Below, one piece after another: positions 5,921-63,361 of a stretch of 64,000 bases of DNA. The first letter of the stretch is position 1, and each line of letters starts with the position of its first letter. The DNA comes from Medicago truncatula (lineage: Eukaryota > Streptophyta > Magnoliopsida > Fabales > Fabaceae). The notes under the pieces were generated by a model, which was given only the letters and a program-made list of their open reading frames with translations, had not been told where the DNA came from and ran no database searches. The stretch spans positions 20,542,501 to 20,606,500 of the forward strand of contig NC_053042.1 in assembly GCF_003473485.1 (NCBI RefSeq), in the 5' to 3' direction. The position numbers and the translations under genes are program-made.

Positions 5921-8825
5921 TGTAACAGCCCGATTTTTAGCTAGATTTATTTTAATTACTTTTAATTGTGTTTGTGTGTGATTAATTGTCGTCGGGTGCA
6001 TTTACATGGATTACCGTATTAGAGGGGTATTTTGGTCATTTGGCGGATAAGGGTAAAATGGTAATTTTGGTGAGAACCCTTATTTTACTAAGTTACTAGT
6101 GTAGTGATTAGTTTTTACCGTTAGTGACCGTTCATTATATTTTACCGTTGTTAGTAATTACCGTGGAGTGTATAGAAACTTTTGAATTGTGTTAGAATGG
6201 GTTAGGCCCATTAGAATTTGGAATTGAGCCCATTAAGGGAGATAACATTAGGGTTGTCATAGGAAAATATCTTTCATCCACTTCACAAAATATTTTCCTA
6301 GAGAGAGAGGGAGGTAGAGAGAGAAAGAGGTGAAGAGAAGAACAAGAGTGTTGAAGGGAAAGCTTGGGGATTCAATTTGGGCGACCTAGGAGCTGAATTG
6401 AAGCAAGGGTTAGAGATAATCAACTTCAAAGGTAAGGGGGTTAGTTATTATCATAATCATGTACAATCTTTGCATTTTCTCATGTTGTATGAAAATGGGT
6501 TGATGGACAATTGTTGTTAAATTCGTGCTCTTGCTGTAATGCTATTTTCTTGTGTTTGAATTGATGATTATGGTATGTTTATGGGTGGAATTACATGTTT
6601 CAAAGTATGTATAAATGTTAAGTTATGAACTTATGCTTAATTGATGAAATTTGATATGTTTTGATTGAAATGAGATGTGATTCATATTCCATTAATGTGG
6701 TTATTGTTAACTGATGCTATTGTAAGTGAATTATGATTTGGGTATACTTAATTGTGGATTGATGATGAGAAATAAATTGTTGTTGGTGGTTTTGTGAAAT
6801 TGGTGAAGTTGAGTTAAGTGTTCATGTGAAGGACCAAAATGAACTTTTTGATATATATATATGGTTGTTGACTGAAATTTTGTTATTGTTGGATGAATTG
6901 AACCTATGAGAATTTCTGTTTTCATGTTATGGTTATGTTAGTTGAGTCGTTTGGGAGAAAACGGGTTTTTCGTGTGAAATGTCGATGTTTAAGCGTTTTC
7001 GCCAATAAGTGATTATGTGAGGTTTTGGAAAATGACTTTTGGGGATGGTTGAAACATGAAATTTTTATAGATTATGTTAGAGTCAAGTGTCAGGATCGTG
7101 TAGGTGAAAACAACATCAAAATCCGATTAACGGTTTGCATTTTACGCGCGAAATGGTGAAAAACGCACTTTTTGGAAAAGCTGTAAGCGAACAGGCCAGA
7201 AGCATCCTTCAGAAGCACACTTCAGAAGAAGCCTTCAGAAGCACACTTCAGAAGCACTCTTCAGAAGCGTCCTTCAGAAGCACCCTTCAGAAGCGTACTT
7301 CAGAAGCATACTTCAGAAGCAGGCCAGAAGCTTCTCAAGAAGCGAAACTGCCAGTTCCAGCATTCCCTGTTTCGCGTTCTTGCGTCTTTTTCACCTATTT
7401 CAGTTTCGAATTGGCCTTTGGTGTAAACATGAAAGTTTTAGATAATTTTGTTAGCTTTCTAATGACGTTGGTTTCAGGTCCAAACGATTTTTAGAACTTG
7501 AGATATGATCAAATTACTACACATGGATCATGCGAATTTTTGTGAAAACTTATCATAACTTTTTCTTTGAGCCGTGGAACTTTTCCAAACTTGAATTTGG
7601 GTTTAATGAGGTACTTAGAGTGAATAATTGAGTATGCATGTATATGTTTGAGGTATGATGACTATCGTGAGAAACGTATGCTAATTGCTTGGAATATAAG
7701 AATTCTTGAATTGGTAAAATCAAACGTGATGAGTGATGTTTGTTGATTATTGAAAATCATGTAATTGATGTTGGATGACATTGTTGATTATTGGTAAATA
7801 TGTTGATGTGTGATGATGAATACTATGATTTATTTGTGTGGGCATGTTTTCTTGATAATGCAATGTTGTGGAGATAATCAATATAATTGGGTGTTGTCCT
7901 ATATATTGAGTTGAGATTGTGAATTGTTGTCGCATTATCGAGTCCTTATACATGTCCATGCATCATAGTCAAGTTGTTGTAAAAGAGTCCGGCTCTTTTA
8001 CTTCGGAGATTATGTAAGGAGTGACCCCTTACATGCGATGTTGACTTGTCCATCGGAGGTGACGACCTTTTGGAGATTTGGTACCACATGCATTTATGTG
8101 TCAATAAGTGCATATCATAAGATGAGTCTTATGTGAAATTCGTGATTGGTGATGAAATGAGATGGATGATTATTGATGATGTTGTGATCGATGCTTGTGA
8201 ATGAATAACTATGAGTGGATAATTGTTCAATAATTAATATCCGTGAATGACTATTTATGATTGAATAATTTTTCACATGATTGATATATGTTGATATGAG
8301 TTATCAAGTTGCAATGTATTTATCTATGCATGATTAATATTATTCAAAATACATGATATTATTGATTTGATTGTTATCTGGATTATGATAATGTAATGCT
8401 TACCCCCAGTGGTTTTAACCGCCTACTTGCCTGTATGGGTGAGTAGACGTTGTGCAGGAGTAGTCTCGGTGAGTCTTTGCTCGGGATATCGGGAGCTTCC
8501 TCCGATATCGGTGTCGTGTCAGCTCTGATCTAGGCTTGTCGTGTCGGTCTAGATTAGGTTGTTTATATTTCCGTTTGGATTATTGTTTTGTTGATGACTA
8601 CCCGTATGTTTGGGTTTTGAGATTTATCTTCGGGATATGATTTATTTGCTCATGGCATGTATATATTTGATCACTCTGATTTATATTCCGCTGTAACTGT
8701 TGAAGTTTACATACATGTCTATCGGTTTTTGAATTTTGAATAATTGAATAAGACGTAATCTCTATTTCTTGAATAAATGTATTATTCGCATGTTTAATTG
8801 CTTTAATAGAAATAGGAGTGTTACA
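5921..8825. mobile_element. Solo-LTR-like fossil B (inner), with 5-bp target duplication
   Basis: It begins TGTAACAGCCCG and ends GGAGTGTTACA, flanked by the perfect duplication ctata (5916-5920 and 8826-8830). The ends form a 7-bp inverted repeat. At 2905 bp with no recognisable protein and no internal copy of its ends, it fits a long solo LTR, probably of a Ty3-type element. A purine-rich block near 6300-6350 followed by 'aggtaaggggg' could be a leader with a splice donor, as known in some plant Ty3 families. It is younger than fossil A, which it interrupts. Confidence 0.6.
7208..7324. repeat. 13-bp tandem repeat, nine copies
   Basis: The unit ttcagaagcacac and variants start at 7208, 7221, 7234, 7247, 7260, 7273, 7286, 7299 and 7312. 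The core ttcagaag is nearly invariant and the last 3-4 bases vary. It lies inside solo-LTR-like fossil B. Because 13 is not a multiple of three, the open frame across it is not evidence of a gene. Confidence 0.85.
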
Positions 8826-20862: not shown

Positions 20863-23837
20863 ATGGGAAAAGAAGAGGTAGAGCTAGAGCCATGGCAGAA
20901 GCTAGACGACAAAGTGGTGTTAGTAACCGGCGCATCCTCCGGCCTCGGATACGACTTCTGTCTCGATCTCGCTAAAGCCGGCTGCAGGATCGTTGCCGCT
21001 GCTCGCCGTCTCGACCGTCTCCACTCCCTCTGCCATCAAATCAACAATCTATACGGAAACGGAAACCTCCTCAACCTCCGCGCCGTAGCCGTTGAACTCG
21101 ACGTCTCCGCAGACGGCGCTTCCATCGACAAGTCCGTGCATAAGGCGTGGGATGCCTTTGGGCATATTGATACATTGATTAACAATGCTGGTGTTAGAGG
21201 GAGTGTTAAATCTCCTTTGGATTTGTCTGAAGATGAATGGAATCATGTTTTTAAAACTAACTTAACTGGTTCTTGGTTGGTTTCAAAATATGTATGTAAA
21301 CGTATTTGTGATGCACACCGAAAAGGTTCTATTATTAATATTTCTTCAACTTCTGGTTTAAATCGGGGAAACCTCTCTGGTGCTGTTGCATATGCATCTT
21401 CAAAGGCTGGACTCAACATGCTTACAAAGGTGATCAATCATTTTTCTTTACATTTCTTATCATAGGATTTAATTATTTTTTTCGTTTACAATTATGCAAT
21501 TTGATGTTCATATATTTACAAAGGCTGGACCCATATATTTAGTTTAGTGTCTCAGGAACTTGAGAGAAGATTCAGTGACATGTTCTTTGTTTAGGTCTTA
21601 TTTACTTTTAGGCTCCCCCAAACCCCCCAGCCAATGGTGTCAAAGTTGATGGCTTGGCGGCCGAGTAACTTGAAGATTGTGGTGGGTTTGCTGCTAGTGC
21701 TAACCTAGGGTTTTGGAGCCATGTTGTTATGCACTTTGGCTCTTTGAACCTCTTTGTTACTAATCTTGTTGATACTTAAAGAGACTTTCACATGATGGGT
21801 ATCATAATAACGTGGGGACTCACATTTTAAGGGAGGAGAATGTTAGAAACTTAGGAAGTCGAATGCAAGTTTTCACAACCTTCATCTGCACATCAGTCTG
21901 TTACATAAAACGTGCAGGCTTCTCCATCGTATACACCGCCGCCGAAGTCAACCAACTGTGTTTGCGTTTGCAGGAAAAGATGGAAGAGGGAACAATTTCC
22001 TTTATATTTTTTCTTTCTTTTTTAATTAAAAAATGCTTAATTTTCAATTTTTAATATCATCCCTTGGATGTTATTTTGCCGCATGTTGTGCATCCATACA
22101 TCTCAATGAACAGCACCCTAAATGGAGCAGATCTGAACTCGGAAATGTCATCTACACTTGGTGGTTTGTTCCTCGGACCACTGGTGCAAATCCTCCCTTG
22201 ACCCCGACACTTATATGATGTATGTTAGAACCTGAAAGTTTGGGAAGTTATCTAACAGATCTAGAAATATAAGTGATTTGGATTAGATGTCAAAACTTCC
22301 TGCAGCCACTGTAGTCTGCACGTCTTGATTGTTGGATTAAGATCAGCCGATTTGTATTTGTACTTTTAATTAGAATCTAATTTGGTGAAGTCTGAATACA
22401 AATGATCCAATCTTGATTCAACAGATGAGATCTTTGACGGCACTGTAGTCACTACAGTTTTCTCAACTTGGTTGTTGCATTAAGATCAGACCGTTGGGAT
22501 TATGAGTTTAATTTGAAATCTAATTTGGTGAAGTCGGAATATAAACTGTCCGATCATGATGCAACAATTGAGATCGATGACTGCAGTTACTGCCGACATC
22601 TTAGATCCAAATATGACATAGGTAGTTACATGGAGTATCTATAGATAAGGCTTCTTGTCAAGGTGTTAAGGATGCCCGGTTTCAATTCATTCAGACAAGC
22701 TAAAATTGACTGATTTTCATCAAGTCACTCCATGGAATTTGTATTTCCAAGTTCATTTATCGACGATTATAATCATTGTCCTTTTCATCAATCTACAAAC
22801 TCTCGTATACTTTTACATTAAGGTACTTTAAATCAACTGTTGCATGCTTATCTTCCATGTCATTTTCGTGTTAGCAATTTTTATCTTGCAAATTTTCATT
22901 TTGCATCTTCATTCGGTGCCCTTTTTATTCTTCCATATTTGCTTTTAGCATTTTAATGCCATTGCATCTTTACATTTGTTGTCAATTACTTTCGGTTCTT
23001 TATAATTTCTTCACTTGACATCTCCTTTTCTGCACTTGTCAATTGCTGCTGCGTTAAGTTTCTGCACTTGACATCCCTCAACATGTCCAAATAAGCCCTT
23101 TTAGTTGCTAGTAAATGCTGTATTAATCAAGAAAAAACAAAATGATAATCAATAGCCAAGGAGAAAAATATATTTTTCATGATCTTATGTTGGCATGACT
23201 TGAAGCAACTGTGAAATGGAGGAGTTGAACACTATGTAAATCAATTTTACGTGTTAAATCCCTTCTAAATGTTTTTTGGTCTTAACCCTTCGGTTCCTAA
23301 GGAAAAGAGAGAGGCCTAGTAATTCAGTGTTAGACTGGGAGGTAAATAAAGTCTCATTCAATATTGTTCCATCAAAAAAATTATCTATTAATTATTACAT
23401 GGTTTAGAGTTCAGAAGTTCACATGTTAATTCCTGGACAAAAGTAAAAAACAATTAACTTATAGCTCTGTAAAATGTTCAATGTGTCATTTGCTGATTAT
23501 ATTCATAATGATTAAACAGTGGCATATTAAAATCATTTTGTCCAATGATGTTTGACAGGTCATGGCTTTGGAATTGGGTGCTCACAAAATTAGAGTGAAT
23601 TCAATATCTCCTGGAATTTTCAAATCTGAAATCACTGAAAAATTAGTAGAAAAAGCTTGGCTGAATAATGTGATCACGAAAATAAACCCTTTGAGAAGTT
23701 TGGTTGCTTCAGATCCTGGATTGACATCTTTGGCTCGTTACCTAATTCATGATGCTTCTGAATATGTCACGGGTAACAATTTTATTGTTGATTGTGGAGT
23801 AACCTTACCTGGTGTGCCGATTTATTCTTCTTTGTAA
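20863..23837 (+). CDS. Short-chain dehydrogenase/reductase (SDR), two exons
   Basis: Exons 20863-21429 and 23559-23837, GT-AG, in phase, encode 281 residues. The classical SDR order is clear: cofactor loop TGASSGLG (about residues 22-29), the arginine-rich AARRLDRL after beta-2 favouring NADP, NNAG (about 107-110), SSTSG with catalytic Ser, YASSKAG with catalytic Tyr and Lys near the exon junction, and [14 protein letters not shown] after it. The end [15 protein letters not shown] is the usual substrate-loop and C-terminal strand region. It resembles plant FabG-like proteins such as At3g55290. The substrate cannot be told. There is no obvious transit peptide, so it is probably cytosolic. The intron (2.1 kb) is filled with repeat-like DNA. 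Confidence 0.9.
22322..22575. repeat. Two diverged direct repeats in the SDR intron
   Basis: A segment of about 110 bp (ttgattgttggattaagatca ... tgatccaatcttgattcaaca) recurs after about 140 bp with many differences (22,463-22,572). Each copy starts and ends with sequences that partly complement each other, so the block can fold. No family is assigned. Confidence 0.5.
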
Positions 23838-24760
23838 AGAATGTATACATTGTGCACTCCCCAAGAATAACTTTGATCATCTTTTTTTTTGTTACATGTA
23901 CTAGTAGTATATAATATATATTTGATCTTGTGATCATAGAAGAATACCTCTTAATATAACATTGCTTCAGAGAGTTATTGATTGTGAAACACATCATGTA
24001 GTGATTAGAATAATTACCCCTTGTTGCAGAATACCATCAAATCAGATGGAAAACCGTATGCAACCAATTGAGAAACTCTAAATCGTGTCTTTTTTCAATT
24101 TGATCATTTTTCTCCAATTGGTGTTGTTTCATGTGTTCCTAGTTAATCTTAATCTCTCTAATTATTTTTGTTGATAATTTAATCTCTTATAAAATGTTTG
24201 CATATTCGAGTAGGGGAGAATGTTTTGTAGATGTTCAAATTCAAAATCGGAGAGAAGTAGAAATAAAATGAACTATTGCTTTCCAAAAACAAAGGTAAAT
24301 AAGAATTAACCATTAGCTAACTTTATTAACCCTTGATAGTTTTGTTTAGGGTGAGTTTCTTCTTTTCATAAATTTAACCATATTTTTTTTTACACATAAA
24401 TATAACCATTAAAGATACACACATCCAACAACTTGATCAAGAGAATAATTAAAGTGAGATGAAAGAATGGTATTGCATTAATCATATGTGCATCATGTCT
24501 ACATTTATGAACAATTTTTATTCCTCCATCCGTTTCTTTTCATCATGTTGTATTGTATCCCTTATATATTACACATGAAGTATGAACAAAAGCAAACTGG
24601 ATGATCATCACTATCCAAAACAATTTGATATATACAATATGTAAATATATATTAGATACCAACATATAATTTATTAACTGGAATTTGTCATCTCTTGTTG
24701 ATCCACTGCTTCACCCTTTGATTGCATTTGTCTTCTATGTACACTTCCTTTGAATCAAGA
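23838..24760. other. Intergenic, no supported gene
   Basis: AT-rich spacer between the SDR gene and the convergent serine-rich protein gene. It should contain both 3' UTRs. Nothing else is recognised. Confidence 0.4.
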
Positions 24761-25228
24761 TCAATAAGCAACAGCTGGAACATGGCAATCAAATCCTACA
24801 ACTCTAACCTTAGCTGATTTAACTCCAAACTTCATTCTAACACAACCACCTTTCCGAAACGGTGAAGATGGAGAGGATAAACCAGATGATGCAGAAGAAG
24901 GAGATGATAAACCTGGTGATGATGAAACTACAGGTGTTGATTGAGGAATGTGTTCCTCCCATGTAAATTGCTCATCTTGAACCAAAGGATTAGAAACTCT
25001 AACAGGAGGAGAGCCAAGAAAATAAGGTGGTGATGATGAAACTTCCTTGTTTTGAATGATATCTAGAAGCTCTGTTCCTACATTTGAATCATGCCCTTCA
25101 TTTTCTTGGCAAAATTTCCATCCTAATTGCTTTCTTGGAATTGGTTTGGGATAAAAGAATGTACCCTTCTGGTTAAAACTAATTTCTGGGGTTGCATAAG
25201 AATTGTGTTGAAGAACAAAATGATTCAT
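24761..25228 (-). CDS. Small serine-rich protein, plant-specific
   Basis: A single open frame of 155 residues. It contains the segment SPPVRVSNPLVQDEQF, a signature I associate with plant 'serine-rich protein-related' proteins such as At5g11090. A Ser/Pro-rich stretch follows (SSPGLSSPSSASSGLSSPSS), then a basic, hydrophobic end (KFGVKSAKVRVVGFDC). No signal peptide or membrane segment is seen. The function is unknown. The whole frame has one exon and a clear ATG preceded by AT-rich leader sequence, so it is probably a real gene. Confidence 0.7.
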   Translation of the reverse strand: MNHFVLQHNSYATPEISFNQKGTFFYPKPIPRKQLGWKFCQENEGHDSNVGTELLDIIQNKEVSSSPPYFLGSPPVRVSNPLVQDEQFTWEEHIPQSTPVVSSSPGLSSPSSASSGLSSPSSPFRKGGCVRMKFGVKSAKVRVVGFDCHVPAVAY

Positions 25229-27160
25229 CTTTGCATCAATTTAGGTTCCTCAGGTGATGATGTAATCCCTTGAATTAACATTAAAAACTTTTTCTGAGAC
25301 GTCATGCAATGTTTGGTGTAGAAATTAAATTCAAATAGCTAGGTCTAATGATTACAACTCAGAACAACAAACTTTTTGAGTAAATTAGATTAACAGAACA
25401 CCAAATAGCTTGCGTGATGTATGGTCTTGTGTGGAAGATATAGCTGTTTTTCCAATGTTTAAGAAAACTTTCTGTATCTAAAATTAGAAGATGACTAGTG
25501 GTTATTAATCTATAGTAAAAAAGTACAGATCAGATGATATTTCTGGAAGGAAATTTGAGAGCTTTTCTCTTACGTGCCTACAGAAAGGATCCCAATGTTA
25601 TCGTTAAATATTCAATTCTAGACTTTTGAGCTAGCATTGTATATTTATGGCTCACTATGATTTTAAATTTCGATTGTGGTCTAATTTTTTTTTTATTATT
25701 ATTTTTTTTTTTTACATTTACATAAACTACATAAATATATATTTTTTAACTGGTACTATCACATGCAAATTTCGTATAAACATTTTCGAGCAAAACTAAT
25801 CTCGTTTTATGAACGAATGTGCCCAATGATCTCATCCCACCATATAACGGATCTTTACCCACAAGCTAGCCATCTTAGGTCCGGAAGGATCACATTCTAC
25901 TATAAATAGTATAGTCACTTAAAGCTAAACCACTCCAATAATTTTTTATATCGTTTTCGGTGACAATCGTAGTTTAAAAGAATTATCATATTCCATCACA
26001 AGAGTATACTTTACTTGAAGCTTGATCACCTTAAGAATTTTTCATATGTCGAAAATCAAGCTAAAAACTTATCGTGCAACTTCCATGTTGATAGGGAGCT
26101 CTTCAATCCCGACATAATGTGTCACACTTTTCATCAACGTCAACCAATACTTGTGTACTAATCAACATCTTGTGTAATCCCGATTGCATCGACACATCCT
26201 TGACTTCAAAATTCTACAAGCTAAAATTAATTGTTCCATCAATTTTCTATATAGCTCAAATTTCACATCAATTGCAACAATTTCATAGTACCACCTTTCT
26301 TTTTCTGACGTGGAAGATCATACAATGTTGTAACCCCAAAGCATATTAAGAATTCATATTCTTGGAACAAACCAAAAGCTCTAATATTTATTTTAGGGAC
26401 AAAAACTATGACACTATCTGTCTTTCAGCTCACCTGAGCACAAGATTCCGATTTAGTATACTTCAATTATATATGGACCTGGTTCATTCTTGTGTGATGT
26501 AATTAACTTGGTTCAGACTTGGGGTAGGAGGGTCATGACCAAAGTTGGTTTTAAACTATGTTGTCAATAGCGGGAAATAGCATTGCTATCATAGCTATGC
26601 CTCACATCACGGTGGGTGGCTGCCCTCACATGCGGCGGATGACTCAGATGGCCTGATTGAGAAGGACTTTCAACTAACTCAAAGTGATGGAACAAGACAG
26701 TACGGGCGATGGGTGGCTGCCCTCACATGCGGCATCACGTCCCGTAAGTGAGTAGCAGTCCTTACAGTCGCATTTGCGCTGTGATTTTTGGGAACAGATC
26801 CTTTTTACGCATCACTATTCCCGCGCAAAAGGTTTTCACAACATGATGAAGTAATGTGTTATCATACACACACACTTGTATAGATATGCAAACGGAATAG
26901 ATTGTGTCCAATTATTTTCTCATGTTTTCCATCTCACTTTTAAACATTTTTCTCACATTTTTTATATCTCATCTCTTTTTTATTCAATGGTGCAAATTTT
27001 ACTTATCTTTCATGTCAATGGAGAGAATCGATTTCCATATGCATATCATTTCTACAGTGCAGCTTGACGTAACTCAATATTAATTATTGTACTAGAATCA
27101 CTTCTTGGCTAATGTGTTGAACGGTCATATTTGCAGCTTGTTCGGAATAGTCGGCAACAA
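25229..27160. other. Intergenic; one hAT-end-like repeat near 26.55 kb
   Basis: Mostly AT-rich spacer. From 26,560 to about 26,790 is a GC-richer repeat starting 'gttgtcaatagcggg', like the hAT ends at 53.4-54.9 kb. It contains a 20-bp class direct repeat (gggtggctgccctcacatgc at 26,611 and 26,710). No opposite end was found and no gene is supported. Confidence 0.35.
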
Positions 27161-27530
27161 TAACTTTCTTACATTTTTGTTGATTTTTAATATTTTTATT
27201 TTTGCATTAAAAATTTATTTTTCTACATTTTGCAGTAGCTAACATGATCTATTTTTGTGACATTGTGAGAGTGTACCTTTTTCGATATAATCAACTTTGT
27301 TAGTACGTGACCCCTTCAATATATTTATGTATATGTATGTATGTATACACATACGTATAAAAGTATATATGTGTGCGCACGCACGTACGCGCGTGTGTTG
27401 AAAATAATATTTAATATAGACATTATTACCAATTGTTAGAGAGATCTTAAAATAAAAGAATAATATTGAAATGATACAAATATATATTTTTTTTTTTAAT
27501 TTTGATTACCGCTACTTGTCTTAATTCAAG

Positions 27531-27990
27531 TTTGGAAGCAAACTAGATCAACAGTTTACCTACTCAGCCAAAGGTCGGTTTCAAACAATATTCTGGTTAT
27601 GTCAAAGTTGGTGAAACAAGTCTAAGTAGATCAATCTTCTACTACTTTGTAGAGGCAGATGTAGATCCTGCTTCAAAATCAGTTGTACTTTGGTTAAAAG
27701 GAGGTATGTAACCAACTATGTTAATTTTGCACAATCTGCTAACTATTTTTGTTTCAAAACACTAACGGCATTCTTCTTAAATTCTTCAAGGACCTGGCTG
27801 CTCATCAGTTGGCCAAGGTGCCTTTTCAGAACACGCTCCTATCCGGCCAACAACAAATGGTCTTGTTAAAAACCCCTTCAGTTGGAGCAAAGGTAACACA
27901 CCAACTTTCTTACATTTTTGTTGATTTTTAATATTTTTGTTTTTGTACTAAAAATTTATTTTTCTACATTTTGCAGTAGCTAACATGATC
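27531..27990 (+). pseudogene. SCPL array unit 1
   Basis: Exon A 27531-27703, exon B 27791-27892, start of the third exon 27977. From INSLPTQP on, exon A is open ([17 protein letters not shown], then [23 protein letters not shown]), but the codon just before it is a stop (tag) where unit 4 has AGG. Exon B reads GPGCSSVGQGAFSEHAPIRP and NGLVKNPFSW. GPGCSS is the oxyanion-hole motif of S10 peptidases. The catalytic Ser, Asp and His, which lie further downstream, are absent, so no active enzyme can be made. Confidence 0.8.
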
Positions 27991-28272
27991 TATTTTTGTG
28001 ACATTGTGAGAGTGTACTTTTTTCGATATAATGAACTTTGTTAGTACGCGACCCTTTCAATATATTTATGTATATGTATGTATGTACATACATACGTATG
28101 TAAGTATATATATGCGCGCACGCACACATGTGCGTTGAAAATAATATTTAATATAGACTTTATTACCAATTCTTAGAGATCTTAAATTAAAAGAATAATT
28201 TTGAAATGATACAAATATAAATTATTATTTTTCTTTTTAAATTTTGATTACCACTACTTGTCTTAATTCAAG

Positions 28273-28725
28273 TTTGGAAGCAAACTAGATCAACAGTTTA
28301 CCTAATCAGCCAAAGGTCGGTTTCAAACAATATTCTAGTTATGTCAAAGTTGGTGAAACAAGTCTAAGTAGATCAATCTTCTACTACTTTGTAGAGGCAG
28401 ATGTAGATCCTGCTTCAAAACCAGTTGTACTCTGGTTAAACGAAGGTATGTAACTAACTCTGTTAATTTTGCACAATCTACTAACTATTTTTGTTTCAAA
28501 ACACTAACTACATTCTTCTTAAATTCTACAAGGACCTGACATCTCATCAGTTGGCCAAGGTGCCTTTTCAGAACACAAAGGGTCAACAACAAAGGGTCTT
28601 GTCAAAAACCCCTTCAGTTGGAGCGAAGGTAACACAACAACTTTCTTACATTTTTGTTGATTTTTAAGATTTTTATTTTTCTACTAAAAATTTATATTTC
28701 TACATTTTGCAATTGCTAACACGAT
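28273..28725 (+). pseudogene. SCPL array unit 2
   Basis: Exon A 28273-28445 and exon B 28533-28628. The oxyanion motif is changed from GPGCSS to GPDISS, the NGG at the exon A end is changed to NEG, and exon B lacks several residues after FSEH. The third-exon acceptor AG is mutated (gcaattgc). It has the same preceding tag stop as unit 1. It is a decayed copy. Confidence 0.8.
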
Positions 28726-29006
28726 CTATTTTTGTGACATTGTGTGAGTGTACCTTTTTCGATATAATCAACTTTGTTAGTACGTGACCCCTTCAATATA
28801 TTTATGTATATGTATGTATGTACATACATACGTATGTAAGTATATATGTGCGCGCACGCATGCTCGCGTGTTGACAAATATATTTAATATAGACATTATT
28901 ACCAATTGTTAGAGATCTTAAAATAAAAGTATAATATTGAAATGATACAAATATAATTATTTTTTTCTTTTTAAATTTTGATTACCACTACTTGTCTTAA
29001 TTCAAG

Positions 29007-29475
29007 TTTGGAAGCACACATGATCAACAACTTACATAATCAGCCAAAGGTCGGTTTAAAACAATATTCTGGTTATGTCAAGATTGGTGAAACAAGACTA
29101 AGTAGATCAATCTTCTACTACTTTGTAGAGGCAGATGTAGATCCTGCTTCAAAACTAGTTGTACTCTAGTTAAATGGAGGTATGTAACTAACTCTATTAA
29201 TTTTGCATAATCTACTAACTATTTTTGTTTCAAAACACTAACTACATTCTTCTTAAATTATTCAAGGACCTGGCTGCTCATCAGTTGGCTAAGGTGTCTT
29301 TTCAGAACACGCTCCTATCCGGCCAACAACAAAGGGTCTTGTTAAAAACCCCTTCAGTTGGAGCAAAGGTAACACAACAACTTTCTTACATTTTTGTTGA
29401 TTTTTAATACTTTTATATTTATTTTTGTACTAAAAATTTATTTTTCTACATTTTGCAGTAGCTAACATGATCTAT
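29007..29475 (+). pseudogene. SCPL array unit 3
   Basis: Exon A 29007-29179 and exon B 29267-29368, third-exon start 29459. Exon A reads from HMINNLHNQPKVGLKQYSGY to LVVL and then has a stop where the family has Trp. Exon B has a stop within SSVGQG. It is broken. Confidence 0.8.
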
Positions 29476-29759
29476 TTTTGTGACATTGTGAGAGTGTACC
29501 TTTTTCGATATAATCAAATTTGTTAGTACGTGACCCCTTCAATATATTTATGTATATGTATGTATGTACATACATACGTATGTAAGTAAATATGTGCGCG
29601 CACGCACGCACGCGCGCGTGTTGAAAAATATATTTAATATAGACATTATTACCAATTGTTAGAGATCTTAAAATAAAAGAATAATATTGAAATGATACAA
29701 ATATAAATTATTATTTTTTCTTTTTAAATTTTGATTACCACTACTTATCTTAATTTAAG

Positions 29760-30232
29760 TTTGGAAGCAGACAGGATCAACAACTTACCTAAATAGCCAA
29801 AGGTCGGTTTCAAACAATATTCAGTTTATGTTAATGTTGGTGAAACAAGTCCAAGTAGATCAATCTTCTAATACTTTCTAGAGGCAGATGTACATCCTGC
29901 TTCAAAACCAGTTGTACTTTGGTTAAATGGAGGTATGTAACTAACTTTGTTAATTTTGCACAATCTACTAACTATTTTTGTTTCAAAACACTAACTACAT
30001 TCTTCTTAAATTCTTCAAGGACCTGGCTGCTCATCAGCTGGCCAAGATGCCTTTTCAGAACATGGTCATTTCCGGCCAACAACAAAGGGTCTTGTTAAAA
30101 ACCCCTTCAGCTGGAACAAAGGTAACACAACAACTTTCTTACATTTTTGTTGATTTTTAATATTTTTACTTTTATTTTTGTACTAAAAATTTATTTTTCT
30201 AAATTTTGCAGTAGTTAACATATCTATTTTTT
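29760..30232 (+). pseudogene. SCPL array unit 4
   Basis: Exon A 29760-29932 and exon B 30020-30121, third-exon start 30212. It keeps the ancestral-looking ADRINNLP start but has several stops in exon A. Exon B is open (GPGCSSAGQDAFSEHGHFRP). The unit is cut in the third exon by unrelated sequence. Confidence 0.8.
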
Positions 30233-31314
30233 AATTCAAAAATGTTAGATTTTCTTCATTTTCTTTTGGAATTTTTCTGGGATTCTTGTTGTTGAAGGTT
30301 GATGCAGATGATATGAAGATGAAAAAGAGGAGGAGAAGATGAAGAAAACCTAACATTTTTGAATTAAAACTAACGGAAATGACCAAAATGTGTAAGAGAA
30401 AGAAGTTAAAGGACCAAAATAAATCAAATTTTATTTAAGAGACCAAAGTGATACTACCTAAATAGTTAAGGGACCAAAAATGCAATTTATCCTATTTTTT
30501 AAATTGGTAGATTCATAAATCAATTTGTCATAACAAAATAAATCAGTTAGTTAAATAAAGATTGTTATCGAGCAATTTATATTTTTTGTCATATGCTTTA
30601 GTTTTTGAGTCGGATTTTCTTTCAAAATGTACAGATTCATCTTTTTAATTGAACTACATATTTACAAAATTCATATAATAAACAACTTCAAATTAAAATT
30701 CACGTTGAAATAAACTTGATATAGGACCATGAAGAATAGAAGAAAACAGAATTTAAAGTGCAGTCTGGGTAAAAAAAAAAAATCAACATATGGAGGACTT
30801 CATGGTAAAAGAAAAATTACAAAGTTATTAAACAGTGTTAAAGTGGAAGGGTGATGTTTGTTAATTTAATAATAAAATAAGGGAGGTTTGTATTTAGTTT
30901 AAAACTAGAGGAGGTGTTTGTGCTATTTAACTAAAACCTCAATGGAATTTAGTGTAATTTACCCTATGATTTTTAAATTTAAATTCAGATTCATCTTGCA
31001 CAAAAAGTGATGAAATCATTCTCTAATAAAATTTATTTATTTTCATTAAAAATAAGATTGTCTAGTACAACATGATATAAATCAATTTCCAAAGATAGGA
31101 AAATTAATTTTATTCATGTAAATCAATTTCTGAACCTAAAAAATTGATTTCTATTTATAAAAACAACATCTAACTCACTATTACTAACAAACATGATTTC
31201 TTTTGTAAAAAATAAAAAAAAACATGATTTCTGAGCATTCAAACATTTAACGATTAGCACAGTTAAATAAAAAAAAACTTGGGTAACATTCTCCAAGCAT
31301 ATGTATATAAACAA
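30233..31314. repeat. Foldback repeat and AT-rich spacer
   Basis: 30,230-30,262 (ttaattcaaaaatgttagat...) is complementary to 30,333-30,368 (...aacatttttgaattaa), making a hairpin with arms of about 30 bp. It continues into a 'gaccaaaatg..gggaccaaaaatgc' segment typical of MULE-type MITE interiors. The rest to 31,314 is AT-rich with no gene. Confidence 0.5.
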
Positions 31315-31731
31315 GGCTTAATTGCATGTTTGATCCCATATGTTTATTTTAGTTTTTAAGTTGTTCCTTTATGTTTTAAAAGTTTTAAGTTGGTCCCTTA
31401 AGTTTTAAAAGTTTCAAGTTGATCCAAAACGTTACTCACATTGGAATAAGTTAGTCCCTTCAGTCATTTAACGTTTAAAGATTCGGGTCGACTATATGGG
31501 TGATGAAATTTAACTTATTTAGAAAATCAATTTTAATTTTTTTTTAATTTTTTTTTGTTTTATTAAATTCAATATCATGTCGTGGAAGAGATTAACTTAT
31601 TACAATGTAAGTAACGTTTTGGATCAACTTAAAACTTTTAAAATGTGAGGGACCAAAATAAAACTTTTAAAACACAAGGAACCAACTTGAAAACTAAAAT
31701 AAACATAAAGGATTAAACATGCAATTAAGAC
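31315..31731. mobile_element. MULE-like MITE, about 417 bp
   Basis: The ends ggcttaattgcatgtttgat and catgcaattaagac are inverted repeats extending imperfectly over 100 bp or more (tttattttagtttttaagttg against its complement). The terminal ttaattgca is shared with the 312-bp MITEs of this window, so it belongs to a related family. The flanks ataaacaag / ataaataaa are a possible eroded 9-bp duplication. It lies just downstream of the glutaredoxin-like gene. Confidence 0.7.
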
Positions 31732-31801
31732 ATAAATAAACAACAGTATATAAAATAAAGACATTATAATTGCCATTAGGAAACAAAAATATAGTCATGA
31801 C

Positions 31802-32899
31802 TCATGAGCAGCAAGTTGGGCATCTTATCAAGCCATTTTCATTACAATCAATGCATCTTTTTTCTAATGATGCATCATTGTATCTTCTCAATTTCCCTTT
31901 TTCCTCTTCAAACACTCTTCTACTACCATTGCATTTTGAGCAAGGAACAAACCTTGCATCTCCACATCTTTCACACACAAACCCAGAATCCTTAATAGGA
32001 AAACCTTTCAACAGATTTTCCAATTCACCAGACTCATGTAGCAACCTGATTTCCTCAGCATTTCCCACATGTTTTCCTCTGATAAAAACATGTGGTAATG
32101 TCACCATTTTGTCTCCAAGTGCATTCTGCAATTCCTTCCTATAAGATGAGTCCATTGAAATGTCCCTTTCATCTACTCTAACTCTGAATCCCTTCAATAT
32201 CATTCTAACGGAACAACAATCTTCATAGGTCTTGCGAATACCCCTTAAACTTGTAAAGTAAAACACTATTCTGTCTTCAGCACCAGGTAAACAGCACAAA
32301 TTTCTAGAAATTGAAGAAAGACTACAACTCAAAGGGCTATTACTACTACTACTGCTGCTGCTACTACCGCTACTAGATTCCGCTGACCTTGATAGATGGT
32401 TGTTTCTTCCATGTTTTCTTGATAACAATGCTCTCTTGTAACTCGAAACAACATTTGAGTCCAATTTAGCAAGCAAAGCTTCCTCGGATAAATGTTGCCA
32501 AAGTGGCTTCTTGTTCAATGATGATGGTGAAGAAGAAGAAGAAGAAGAAATGTTCTTCTCCATTGGAGTGTCAAAATTTGGTTCATCGTCAACATCATCA
32601 AGGCCATCCATGAGTTCCCAAGCGTTGATGACTGAGTCAGGTGACAATGATTCTTCTCGCTGTGTTTCGTTCAGTTTTGAGGGTTCGTCATCATAATCGT
32701 TTTGGTTAATCATGAGAAGGGAACCATAGGTGGTGGAGGTGAGGGAAACAAGGTGATGAGTATCACCTTTTCTTGTTGGAGGGTGATGCACAAGAGGCAT
32801 TGGGAGAGACATAGCTTTTGAAACTTGTGAAGAATTAGAATGGTTGTCCTCGGAATTTTTAACAACTATGGTAAGGTTTTTTGAGACTGGACAACCCAT
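31802..32899 (-). CDS. Glutaredoxin-like protein with C-terminal zinc-ribbon
   Basis: A single-exon frame of 365 residues. The N-terminus MGCPVSK fits N-myristoylation (Gly2) and possible palmitoylation (Cys3), suggesting membrane attachment. A long Ser-rich acidic linker follows, including a run of serines around residue 170-190. The glutaredoxin-like fold starts about residue 210 (IVFYFTSLRGIRKTYEDCCS), with the TLPHVFIRGKHVGNAEE substrate/glutathione-binding region near 270. The usual CPYC/CGFC active site is replaced, as in the At5g39865/At3g57070 family. The C-terminus carries four CxxC-type knuckles (CERCGDARFVPCSKCNG..., CIDCNENGLIRCPTCC). It is intact; its reducing activity is doubtful and a role as a scaffold or sensor is possible. 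Confidence 0.9.
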   Translation of the reverse strand: MGCPVSKNLTIVVKNSEDNHSNSSQVSKAMSLPMPLVHHPPTRKGDTHHLVSLTSTTYGSLLMINQNDYDDEPSKLNETQREESLSPDSVINAWELMDGLDDVDDEPNFDTPMEKNISSSSSSSPSSLNKKPLWQHLSEEALLAKLDSNVVSSYKRALLSRKHGRNNHLSRSAESSSGSSSSSSSSNSPLSCSLSSISRNLCCLPGAEDRIVFYFTSLRGIRKTYEDCCSVRMILKGFRVRVDERDISMDSSYRKELQNALGDKMVTLPHVFIRGKHVGNAEEIRLLHESGELENLLKGFPIKDSGFVCERCGDARFVPCSKCNGSRRVFEEEKGKLRRYNDASLEKRCIDCNENGLIRCPTCCS

Positions 32900-34230
32900 G
32901 AATGAATGTGTTCAAATTGAAGAAATTGGTGGAATTTGTGTGTGTATGTGGTTGTCTTGTTAGGAAGACATAAAAGAAGAAATCGAGTAGTGTCGGGTGA
33001 AAGTGATGTTTCAACATTGAGGTAGGTTTGGGAAGGGTGTGATGAATGGTGTATGAAAAGATAGATCCATAAAAATCGTTATTAGTTTAGGACAAATATG
33101 AATTTTTCTTAAATTGATAATTATGAGGGAGAAATTAATGGAAGACTAGGAACTGTGGGTAAAATAGTCAGTTGGAATTTGTAAGATTTCTGTTACATTT
33201 GATATGCATGAATTTTTCGATGGACAGGGATACATAAACCACCTTAGATGACATATACCACTTGTACATCCACATACAAGTGTGACATGTGTCCATGTGG
33301 TTTCCACACATAAAAAACTTACATTTTGTGTCTCTCACACACTCTCACATGAGAGTGGTACAATGTGTGTATGAGAAAAGAGTGTCTATGAAACATTATC
33401 CTTTTCCTATTAGCGATGACGACTAAGCATATTTTTAGCTATCTTCTCTTGTGTTATGTTTTATTTGTGTAAAACACAAAATACATTTGACTTTTCAAAA
33501 AGAGAGCACGTGATTATATTGAACATTAAACAATAATCATTTTAAAAAATTCATTATCTCCCTTATATGTAAAAAAAAAAAAAAAAGGTATGTTTTTGCC
33601 AATAGACCTGATTGATACATGACAATAACATAATATTAAAAAAAAAACACAAATCCACGTTGAATAGATACGACCCTTGATAAGAATTTATAAGAAAAAC
33701 ATTTCTTTTATTACAAGTCGGTTTTGTAACGGACCCATGGACCCATGAACCAAATAGACATTGCAGCTTTGACACTCTGACAATCAGAGTTCTTGGTACG
33801 ATCTCCAACTAACTTCAATGTTCCTCCAGATTTTGCGGATACATATATGATCGAGCACCCCTGTATAAGGACAATTGTGCGCCCTTTCAACGGAGATTCA
33901 TTATTAACCACTTTTATCAACTCTTCTAGAGAGTCTTCACTATGTTATCTCTTGTTCTTGTAATGTCATTGTACCCACACTGGAGCATTACCACCATCGG
34001 AAGCTATCATAGCACCGCCACACCAACGAACCTCTTGTATGGTTATCGTTGATTGAATACAAACGATCTTGTTTACACTTGGAAATTAATTTATAAATGA
34101 GGGATGCAATTATGTAGGAGTAGTAAGACTTAACTCAAACTTTAATATTAAGAGTTTAATCTTATAATTCTAAAGGTATAAGTTTAAATTCTCTGAAGGA
34201 CAATATTAAGAGAAAATGACATCAAATAGA
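32900..34230. other. Upstream region of the glutaredoxin-like gene; no other gene
   Basis: The 5' region and AT-rich spacer. Short open stretches on the minus strand at 33.56-33.92 kb show no domain I recognise. Nothing bounded is seen. Confidence 0.4.
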
Positions 34231-34254
34231 ATATAGCAATATATGTAAAAAAAT

Positions 34255-35084
34255 TAGGGGAGGGATATATTGACTCCAAGAGTAAGTCTAAAGACTTACT
34301 CCAAATCTAAACCCTTCATCTTAATAATAATTAATGGCTAAAATTGATTTTTAATAATCCCTATGGTATGTTCTTTTCACATCTTCTTCCTGATTCCGAC
34401 GACAAATAACATGGAAAGATTGATTTTGATACAAACATGTGTGCCTTCAATCTAAAAGAATCAGAACCGTTCCACTATTTTATCACTGCTACAAATCATT
34501 ATGTATAAGAAATTGGTTTCATAAAAAATTTCATTATGAATAATCGAACACATCATAAATCCACTAATTTGCAATCAACGACTTTCAAACAGTTTCTTTT
34601 CTTCATAAATTGGTGTAGGCTTCTTTAGAATGTTTCGTTCAAATATTGAATTGGTTTCAATGCACCGATTGTTTTCCACACCACTACATGACAGTGATAA
34701 ATGGTGGAGTTGCATCAATACATGAATGGATCAAAATAAAACCTAAAAAGAATGAATATTTCCATTTGAGAAGAATAAAATGATATTGAAAATTAAAATT
34801 TAAAATTTTGAAATTTTAAAATCAATGGTGTTGGTATCTCTAAAAAAAAAAAAGATCAATGGAGTTATTAGGCAAATGTGTGTGTGCCATTGCCACGAAA
34901 CTCAACAGGTTGAAAGGGAAGGGATGAATTAACTTTAACTGCACCGATGTTATGCAATTCTCCTGATTTAACCACACCTAAAAATTAGTAGTAATTAATC
35001 TTATTCATTAATTATTTTTAAGACAAGGGTTAAGATTTGGAGTAACTCTTTTGAGTTACTCTTGGAGTCAATATATCCCTCCTC
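34255..35084. mobile_element. Non-autonomous TIR element, about 830 bp
   Basis: The left end (gggagggatatattgactcc, onward to about 34,320) and the right end (about 35,022-35,084) are inverted repeats of about 60 bp with few mismatches. The interior has no open frame of note. A 24-bp direct repeat (starting atatagcaatatatg) is found right at the left end (34231-34254) and again 54 bp beyond the right end (35138-35161), so the insertion history is not simple. The superfamily is unassigned. Confidence 0.75.
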
Positions 35085-35579
35085 GCAAAATTATATGGTT
35101 GTAAATTAGTCGCCGTCGGGATAAATTGTTTTGCGAGATATAGCAATATATGTAAAAAAATATACACATTATTAAAAAAAATATATATCTTTTACTACCA
35201 TATGGGTGGTATCACACTGCCCAATGCTTTTGTGTCATAAGATCATGGATAATTGGCATTGAAATTGAGTAGTTAAACTATCCATGGTAATAATGGATTA
35301 CTACCTTCCTTTTCCTGCAATTGTTGATTTTGTGCACATTTTGTATTACTTTTGAGTTTTTTTTTCTTTTAATTAATATTTATATTATTGAAGAGAAGCC
35401 CAACGGTAATATACATTTATTCAAGCCAACAAACTATACATTTCTCTTCATACATATTTAACTCATGCAACGGTAATATATATTTTTTCACTCATGCAAC
35501 GGCTAATTTTTTTAACATATATATTTAATTATTTATCCTATTCCATGGTAAAAAAAAAAACTACACATTTCTTTTGAAA

Positions 35580-37490
35580 ATGAACCCCAACAATCAAGAA
35601 TTTTGGTCCAATTATATATAAAATGGTGGTAATCCTCTTTGTAACCCAAATCAACAAAACACCTCATATTTTGAAAGTACATCTCATAACCCAAATCCAT
35701 ATTATAATCAAAAATTTTTAAATTCTCCTTTTATTCCAATTCCACAAAATAATCTACCCTTTGGAAATTACCCATATCATACTTCACCTTACCAACATCA
35801 ATCTCAATAATTTTCATCTCAATCAACTAACCCCACTATGTCTCATGAGGTTCATATTGGTAATGGTGGTGTGCAATCAAATGATCAAGAGACTTCAACA
35901 CCAAAATCTTGCACTCAAGGTGGCTTGGAAACTATAAATCTTGATGAAGAAATTGGATTTGCACCGGTTGTAAAAACGCCGAAAATAAGATTCCAACCAA
36001 ATGAGGATTAACTTCTCATTCAATCATGGTTCAACATTTCAAAGGACTCGATTGTTGGAGTTGATCAAAAAGGAGATTGTTTTTGGAAGAGGATTAGTGA
36101 AGCTTATAACAAGCACCACGACAAAAATTGTCCAGAGAGGAATTTCATGGCACTAAATGGTCGATGGCACAAAATGATCAATCCTTCTGGTAATAAGTTT
36201 GTTGGGTGCTACAAACAAGCCGTTGGTTTGAAAAAAAGTGGTAGCTCCGAGAGCGACATTATTTTGGCTGCACATGATATTTTTCACCACGACATGTGTA
36301 GAAAATTCACATTTGAGGGTGCGTGGAGATTAATGAAGGATGAACCCAAATGGAGTGCAGGTTCATTAGAACCTTCTTCAAAAAGAACAAATAATTCAAC
36401 TTCTGGAGCATATTTGCCGTCTACTAACCCACCAACACCAACAAGCGAATACAATCCGCCGAAGCGTCCAATCAGTCAAAAGGCGGCTAAAAGGAAGGAA
36501 AAAGAAAAGCTTAAAGAAACGTCTACTACCAAATTTGATACTTTGAAATATGACTTCGACAAAAAGTTTGAACTAGTATCCGTGTTTGCACATGATTATG
36601 CACATATTGAGAGTGAAAAGGTCGAGATAGAGAGGAAAAGGGTTGATGCAGAGTTGCAAAGAACCGAAAATGATAGGGAAAGGTCGAAGATCGATGATTT
36701 ACAATTTTTTTAAAGGATACATCAAATATGAATGCAAGACAACTAAAAGATTATGAATATTTGTGTGGCATGATTAGAGATAAATATGGACATAATTGAT
36801 ATTATTATGTATATTATAATGGATACGTGCATCATATTACACAACATGATTGTTGAAGATGAGTGTGCTACATATGGTGGCAATTTTGATTATTCTTATG
36901 ATCATCTTGGCAATGACCCAATTGCACCATCAGATGATTCTAATATTGATTTTCGCGAGTTCCTACGTAGAAGATACCATGTTCAAGATAAGCAAATTCA
37001 TCGACACCTTCAACAAGATTTGATAGAACATATATGGGAACGTTCTGGGCATGAGAATAACCGCAACTAAAAATTATTTTAAAATTTAGTATATTTTGAG
37101 GTAGTAGTTTATTTCAACGTTTAATAATTTAATTAATCTATTTTCTTATAACTTATTTGTGTCTAGTACATTATTTAATATATTTTCGTATAATTTTCAT
37201 TTAATTTTATTTATTATTTAGATATTTTGATTCATTTTGAGTATATTGTGTGATACATTTTATATATTTTCATTACACATTTTATATATTAATGTAAAAT
37301 ATAATTTAAAGTATATTGTAGTTGTAAGATAAGTGTGACCTATTTTAGAGTTTTAGAGGAGTGGTATGGATATTTAGAAAATATAGTTGAGTGGTTTAAA
37401 TAATTAAAAAGTGTAAAGTAATATAATATATTATGTGGATCCCATCTATACCACCCATTTGAGTTGCATGGATGTGGATGCTCTACGGTT
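35580..37490 (+). mobile_element. PIF/Harbinger DNA transposon remnant
   Basis: From ATG 35580 to 36713 runs the Myb/SANT-like accessory protein (ORF2 type): MNPNNQEFW, the RFQPNED..LLIQSWFNISKD trihelix start, FWKRISEAYNKH, LNGRWHKMI, and an acidic/basic C-terminus with a coiled coil. It has a few in-frame stops before 36,030; the downstream 188 codons from 36,147 are open. At 36786-37070 is the last part of the DDE transposase (MDTCIILHNMIVEDE ... REFLRRRYHVQDK). The catalytic core is missing, so the two proteins have been brought together by deletion. The region up to 37,490 (ggtatggatatttagaa..ctataccacccatttg) is a likely subterminal end. It is dead. Confidence 0.8.
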
Positions 37491-62809: not shown

Positions 62810-63361
62810 CTCCTTGACCGAGTAGCTCTTTTCTTGGTGATAGAGATATCACCATTTTCATCTTTCACATTGGTTTTTTTAACTCTGGACTGTTGAGCTC
62901 CTATAATTGGCAGCATCGTGTTAATTACAGCAATACAATCAGCCAGATTCACAAAACCCATGTTTAAAGTACTAACCTCTTGTCTTAACCATGGGTGATT
63001 GGACTTCAATATCCACTTGATCTGATTCAATCAATTCACTCAAAACACTAGAAGATTCTTTGATGATAGAGATATCACCCTTTTCACCTTTCACATTGGT
63101 TTTAATCCTGGACCGTTGAGCTCCTATAATTGGCAGCATCATGTTAATTACAACAATACAGTCAACCAGATTCACAACAGCTGTGTTTCAACTAACCTGT
63201 TGTCTTAACCATGGGTGACTGGACTTCAATATCCACTTGATCTGATTCAATCAATTCACTCAAAGCACTAGACGATGCTTCCGGTACAGGTTTAGAACCT
63301 GATTTGCCATTTATAGACAAAGAATTTGTCCCTTCAGTGCTTGTATCAATTACTTCACCAT
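62810..63361 (-). CDS. 3' exons of an unrecognised gene, with exon duplication
   Basis: Three in-phase exons on the minus strand: 63361-63197 (165 nt), 63123-62977 (147 nt), 62900-62810 (91 nt, provisional end). All introns have GT-AG borders. The encoded segment is hydrophilic and acidic, then basic: LSELIESDQVDIEVQSPMVK appears in both exon 1 and exon 2, and AQ(R/Q)SRxK, TNVK, GDISI appear in both exon 2 and exon 3, ending KKRATRSR. The introns between them are also alike, so the gene has an internal duplication of about 220 bp. The gene is incomplete here: no start is seen. I do not recognise the family; the basic end suggests nuclear or nucleic acid-binding, which is a guess. Confidence 0.55.

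Follow-up and report, generated by a model that had tools for sequence, protein, structure and literature searches.

Within a 64,000-nt stretch of Medicago truncatula DNA (C1:20542501-20606500, hereafter the window; the genome comprises 430 Mb in 42 contigs), partial copies of a serine carboxypeptidase (SCPL) gene are repeated head to tail. Pfam matches place a short-chain dehydrogenase gene on one side of this array and a gene with a glutaredoxin domain on the other; hence, it can be said to sit between ordinary genes. Several other repeats are seen in the same window: a 13-base tandem repeat of 9.6 copies with open frames running through it (7197-7321); a degenerate dispersed repeat (25889-26408), whose other genomic copies are 65-78% alike; an inverted repeat beside the glutaredoxin-domain gene (31317-31729), with 145-nt arms that are 88% complementary and lie 123 nt apart; and a stretch of ~220 bp present in two tandem copies with 88% matches (62834-63280). 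The array, its flanks and the two neighboring genes are arranged thus:

20863-21462, plus strand: short-chain dehydrogenase gene
26477-27155, plus strand: left flank, a fragment of a gene-like locus with an insert at about 26621-26709
about 27156-27522, plus strand: partial unit 0, with the end of intron 2, the start of exon 3 (to about 27254) and a MITE piece
about 27523-28264, plus strand: unit 1, SCPL to about 27996, then a MITE piece; TAG in exon 1
about 28265-28998, plus strand: unit 2, SCPL to about 28732, then a MITE piece
about 28999-29751, plus strand: unit 3, stops in exons 1 and 2
29179 and before, plus strand: part of exon 1 in unit 3, followed by intron 1 (29180-29266) and exon 2 (29267-29368)
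29369-29458, plus strand: intron 2 of unit 3, followed by the start of exon 3 to about 29477 and the MITE piece to about 29751
about 29752-30231, plus strand: unit 4, an SCPL piece that is followed by no MITE piece; exon 1 with two stops
30232-30500, plus strand: right flank, a dispersed foldback repeat, broken where the array ends
31805-32911, minus strand: glutaredoxin-domain gene

With its longest period raised to 2000, TRF recovers a head-to-tail array at 27157-30231 with a period of 753, a consensus of 745, 4.1 copies, 91% matches and a score of 5038; when the sequence is compared with itself, identity peaks at 42% (lag 753), and none of 20 mononucleotide shuffles exceeds 32%. Thus, the tandem array of a partial SCPL gene in units of about 740 bp, first proposed by a sequence-only reading of this DNA, is real. 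Four of the units bear exons (starts at about 27521, 28263, 28997 and 29750, i.e., spacings of 742, 734 and 753 bp); a fifth, incomplete unit, absent from that reading, lies at the left end. With at least three units of one size class repeated head to tail (4.1 units at 91% by TRF), the array resembles a satellite; it displays neither the homogenisation nor the high copy number of one, its units being few and star-like in their differences. Each unit runs from the 3' part of SCPL exon 1 through intron 1, exon 2 and intron 2 to ~18 nt of exon 3, and then into a piece of a MITE. TRF, the stops and the comparison of units agree with the earlier statement that the thing amplified is a gene piece with its introns and no whole gene. 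The further statement that the unit consists of two-and-a-bit SCPL exons applies to about two thirds of it (~60-65%), but the remainder belongs to a dispersed MITE.

The identity of the gene piece is secured by unit 4, whose joined exons, with X placed at its two stops, match PF00450 (Peptidase_S10) at 1.1e-26 and 94.6 bits (cut-off 21.9) over positions 6-90 of the 420 in the profile. The piece begins inside exon 1, an exon that also codes for a signal peptide in the relatives; its introns, of 86-90 nt, lie at the same positions as in intact relatives, and exons 1 and 2 both end in phase 1. None of the units amounts to a complete open SCPL gene with the catalytic part: the piece stops ~18 nt into exon 3, and translation in one frame meets in-frame stops in all four units, namely one in unit 1, one in unit 2, two in unit 3 and two in unit 4. 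The disabling changes had been described as different in every unit; this is only partly right, since units 1 and 2 have one and the same TAG in exon 1, with unit 2 additionally displaying a 6-nt deletion in exon 2 and the loss of the exon 3 acceptor. The exon borders, which were described as kept in each unit, are indeed preserved at the exon 1 donor (GT), the exon 2 acceptor (AG) and the exon 2 donor (GT) in four of four cases; at the exon 3 acceptor, they are preserved in four of five, the exception being unit 2, which reads GCAA for GCAG.

The spacer of unit 3 (29478-29751, plus strand, ~270 bp) corresponds with a 76% match to about positions 197-479 of a 762-nt MITE, this internal part being all of the element that is present. 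A genome search with the spacer gave at least 43 matches, four of them the array itself and some representing copies found as two pieces (best 40 of 102 candidates); the MITE is found in 36 loci, some of them counted twice. Its dispersed copies extend up to ~760 bp, and the near-complete ones have related inverted ends (CAGRGCCRGCC-like and GGCCCTG-like); in the one full-length copy that was checked (L041, 1305-2066), an 8-bp duplication, GTTTAGTC, stands on both sides. On features of this kind, we take the source of the spacer to be a hAT-like MITE. The alternating purine-pyrimidine tract noted earlier in the spacer is certainly there, but it is the MITE's own TA/TG/GC microsatellite, which lies inside the element and is present in other dispersed copies too; the MITE itself had been missed. 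Both SCPL/MITE joints hold a few nt that could be assigned to either side (a T run and AAT). An expansion of the MITE alone was rejected because most of the unit is SCPL. As for a source of the spacer near an SCPL gene, the full MITE gave no match in 30 kb around the SCPL locus on C7 that is described below (1e-4). At C7:47.34 Mb, a copy of the MITE lies 1.5 kb away from a further SCPL gene; given the opposite orientation to that gene and the distant subfamily, this was taken as chance.

The way in which the units differ is informative regarding their history. Mean pairwise differences are 8.7% for exon 1, 9.7% for exon 2, 5.6% for intron 1, 6.0% for intron 2 and 7.0% for the MITE piece, i.e., the exons diverge no slower than the introns. 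Units 1-4 vary at 66 ungapped sites, of which 57 are changed in a single unit (private sites), three group units 1 and 2 against 3 and 4, one groups 1 and 4 against 2 and 3, and five have more than two letters. The dominance of private sites, with exon divergence at least that of the introns, is as expected of a single burst followed by unconstrained neutral drift. This accords with the earlier view that they decayed after amplification, with which both the stops and the star-like differences agree; its alternative of a stepwise amplification is weakly favored for units 1 and 2 alone (three shared sites versus 57 private ones; FastTree support 0.84). Neutral rates are of the order of 1e-8 per site and year, on which differences of 6-10% would make the array a few million years old, as an order of magnitude only. 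The same differences bear on whether a single copy was wrongly repeated in the assembly: the units differ pairwise by 6.0-9.6%, each has private changes, and the joints differ by small indels, whereas nothing was found in favor of such an artefact, which is barely credible.

On the left, the array abuts a fragment whose paralogue (C1:27559018-27559594, minus strand) is 80% identical over 26710-27155 and 77% over 26477-26620; the paralogue continues, open and exon-like, past the point where the window switches to SCPL intron 2, and the 35-residue translation of this continuation had no Pfam match at 0.01. The stretch 26637-26709, within the insert in this gene fragment, is 96% like a place on C3. 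On the right, the foldback repeat lacks ~134 nt of its left arm relative to the one complete copy compared (C3:9343413-9343807); it has at least 111 matches genome-wide (best 40 of 1072 candidates). The SCPL base at which the array ends here, within a T run, is also that of the internal joint between SCPL and MITE. Since the sequence breaks into other sequence on both sides, it is breaks, and no ends of an element, that delimit the array. It was suggested earlier that a Helitron might have given rise to the array and, more generally, the array could be the cargo of a gene-capturing (Pack-type) transposon: intron-bearing fragments of different genes adjoin (the left-flank gene fragment and SCPL), as they do in such elements. 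However, a strict search for the Helitron 3' end (hairpin with CTRRT) in 22001-36000 was empty on both strands, which is weak evidence because shuffles averaged only 0.55 hits; none of the 11 pairs of inverted repeats of at least 30 nt in 24-34 kb represents element ends around the array, the one low-grade poly-T pair (27467-27497 with 30772-30802) beginning inside it; and, more strongly, both ends are breaks in known sequence. A capture origin is very improbable, and the Helitron suggestion is not supported.

A 500-base query from the unit found 26 matches in the genome (all 26 candidates scored): five in the window array, four elsewhere and 17 on C7 (17.0127-17.0314 Mb). The latter constitute a second array, built from the 5' region of a related SCPL gene, which is new here and was missed by the sequence-only reading. 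TRF delineates 14.4 units of 1018 bp that are 97% alike (L029-L031, 12581-27251 of the C7 slice), and two more SCPL pieces to the left bring the pieces to 17 altogether. The C7 unit starts in an upstream dispersed repeat and takes in the promoter region, then exon 1 from the ATG, intron 1 and exon 2 to ...AACAACAAAGGGT; only the 17th piece goes further, through intron 2 to exon 3. Compared with this 17th piece, 12 of the 17 have a 1-nt deletion in exon 1, so that most of the units are shifted out of frame. Over the stretch compared, no difference separates units 7, 9, 10 and 13, and the end units are more diverged; such a homogenised center with diverged ends is the usual mark of unequal exchange, and the array has clearly grown in place at its own SCPL gene. 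The two arrays parallel each other as amplifications of the same SCPL region, the C7 case being a partial tandem duplication of the 5' end of a gene, but they are cut differently: the C7 units run from the upstream repeat to exon 2, whereas in the window the unit has its start inside exon 1, extends as far as exon 3 and holds a MITE of another kind.

In a tree of the four exon-bearing C1 pieces, the 17 C7 pieces and L032 as the sole outside row (the partial unit 0, L033 and L035 being left out), the C1 pieces fall together (0.984) and the C7 pieces stand apart from C1 plus L032 (0.990). Judged from this separate grouping and the different joints, the two arrays arose separately from related genes. 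They nevertheless meet in one point. In the C7 gene, exon 3 is interrupted: at ATCTACTT it gives way to CTGGGGCGGAGCC..., and behind ...CCGCCACTG it takes up again with a second ATCTACTT (about C7:17034403), the later exons lying at 17034400-17034825. This interruption (C7:17031384-17034410; L031, L077) is a hAT-like MITE with ATCTACTT as its 8-bp duplication, itself split by an element TGTAACGCC...GGTGTTACA with TCCGC on both sides. The C1 SCPL pieces end at ATCTATTT, within ~3 nt of this insertion site. Among the matches listed (best 40 of 675 candidates), the C7 hAT copy has its nearest relatives at 93%, the 39 others spanning 83-93%, while the C1 and C7 SCPL pieces are 80-85% alike; hence, the insertion looks younger than the split between the genes, and a shared insertion as the cause of the common break was not adopted. 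The coincidence might be due to chance, at a few percent by a rough, post hoc reckoning. One might alternatively suppose that this SCPL subfamily has a 5' region with an inherent tendency to amplify: tandem arrays came from it twice in the one genome, out of diverged paralogues and with joints against repeat-derived sequence, and at both loci the break in the gene falls at one and the same place in exon 3. The site of hAT insertion or excision in exon 3 would then act as a recurrent break that frees the 5' piece, and the C7 array, with the promoter in its units, might still be giving rise to transcripts of SCPL pieces; we regard this as a long shot, albeit a possible one.

The window array itself is probably an inert, satellite-like relic, in which a chimera of SCPL and MITE was multiplied by tandem duplication and unequal exchange and then drifted neutrally. 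A piece of an SCPL paralogue, from part of exon 1 to the start of exon 3, would have fused with internal stretches of a hAT-like MITE, possibly by way of the few nt of shared sequence at the joints. Were two MITE fragments in direct orientation to flank the SCPL piece and to overlap only at 197-479, a non-allelic exchange between them would give exactly this unit, and further duplication and unequal exchange could have copied the chimera head to tail in one burst. Unequal exchange, one of the origins suggested earlier, or tandem duplication fits best. Three observations speak against such a course: there is no MITE remnant beside the array, so that the flanking remnants it predicts at the array ends must have been lost; the right end falls on the base of the internal joint, which simple exchange does not predict; and the SCPL piece ends so close to the C7 hAT site. 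Alternatively, the chimera might have been circularised outside the chromosome and a rolling-circle concatemer inserted at a break between the gene fragment and the foldback repeat. The chimeric joint, the star-like burst (57 of 66 sites private), the non-integral number of units (4.1) and the foreign, broken sequence on both sides would all fit a circle, but the sequence offers nothing to separate it from duplication and exchange in place, and the C7 array manifestly grew at its gene. A circle is accordingly the less likely course, though it deserves some weight.

With no reading frame and all copies in one direction, nothing in the window array points to a function. Small RNAs are known to be made from repeated gene pieces, and the array could in principle be a working regulatory locus that makes putative small RNAs acting on SCPL genes. 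It has an exact stretch of 42 nt and 140 21-mers in common with the last C7 unit, and exact stretches of 22 nt with L032 and 23 nt with L033 (the longest with L035 is 15 nt). However, of its 3056 21-mers only five recur in the 5' part of L032, which is the nearest among the intact relatives examined; its decay is star-like and neutral; and, as all copies run the same way, there is no foldback precursor, no inverted copy of the unit being seen in 24-34 kb. A regulatory role is thus highly improbable. An effect of small RNAs from the window on the C7 locus would be conceivable because of the 140 shared 21-mers, but is unsupported.

Reviews, in the portions available, list satellites derived from MITEs and discuss unequal crossing-over and microhomology-mediated duplication (PMC9659126, PMC12628747). 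Like the satellites derived from TEs or MITEs in those portions, the window units are head to tail and each has an internal MITE piece; unlike them, ~60-65% of the unit is a piece of a protein-coding gene with introns, and the array has very few units, at a single site, with no present homogenisation. No description of either array was found in the literature searched, as far as its text was accessible, which is no proof that they are unpublished. Thus, the observation is real and its meaning ordinary: this is a chimera of gene and MITE, arrayed like a satellite and now dead, and no new kind of system. Interest is added to it by the C7 array and the common exon 3 break. The two arrays can be seen as two stages in the birth of repeats from one gene region in one genome, the young one on C7 still attached to its gene and homogenised at its center, and the old one in the window detached and decaying. 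If the exon 3 break is not chance, the insertion or excision of transposons would be linked to the way in which gene pieces are set free and amplified.
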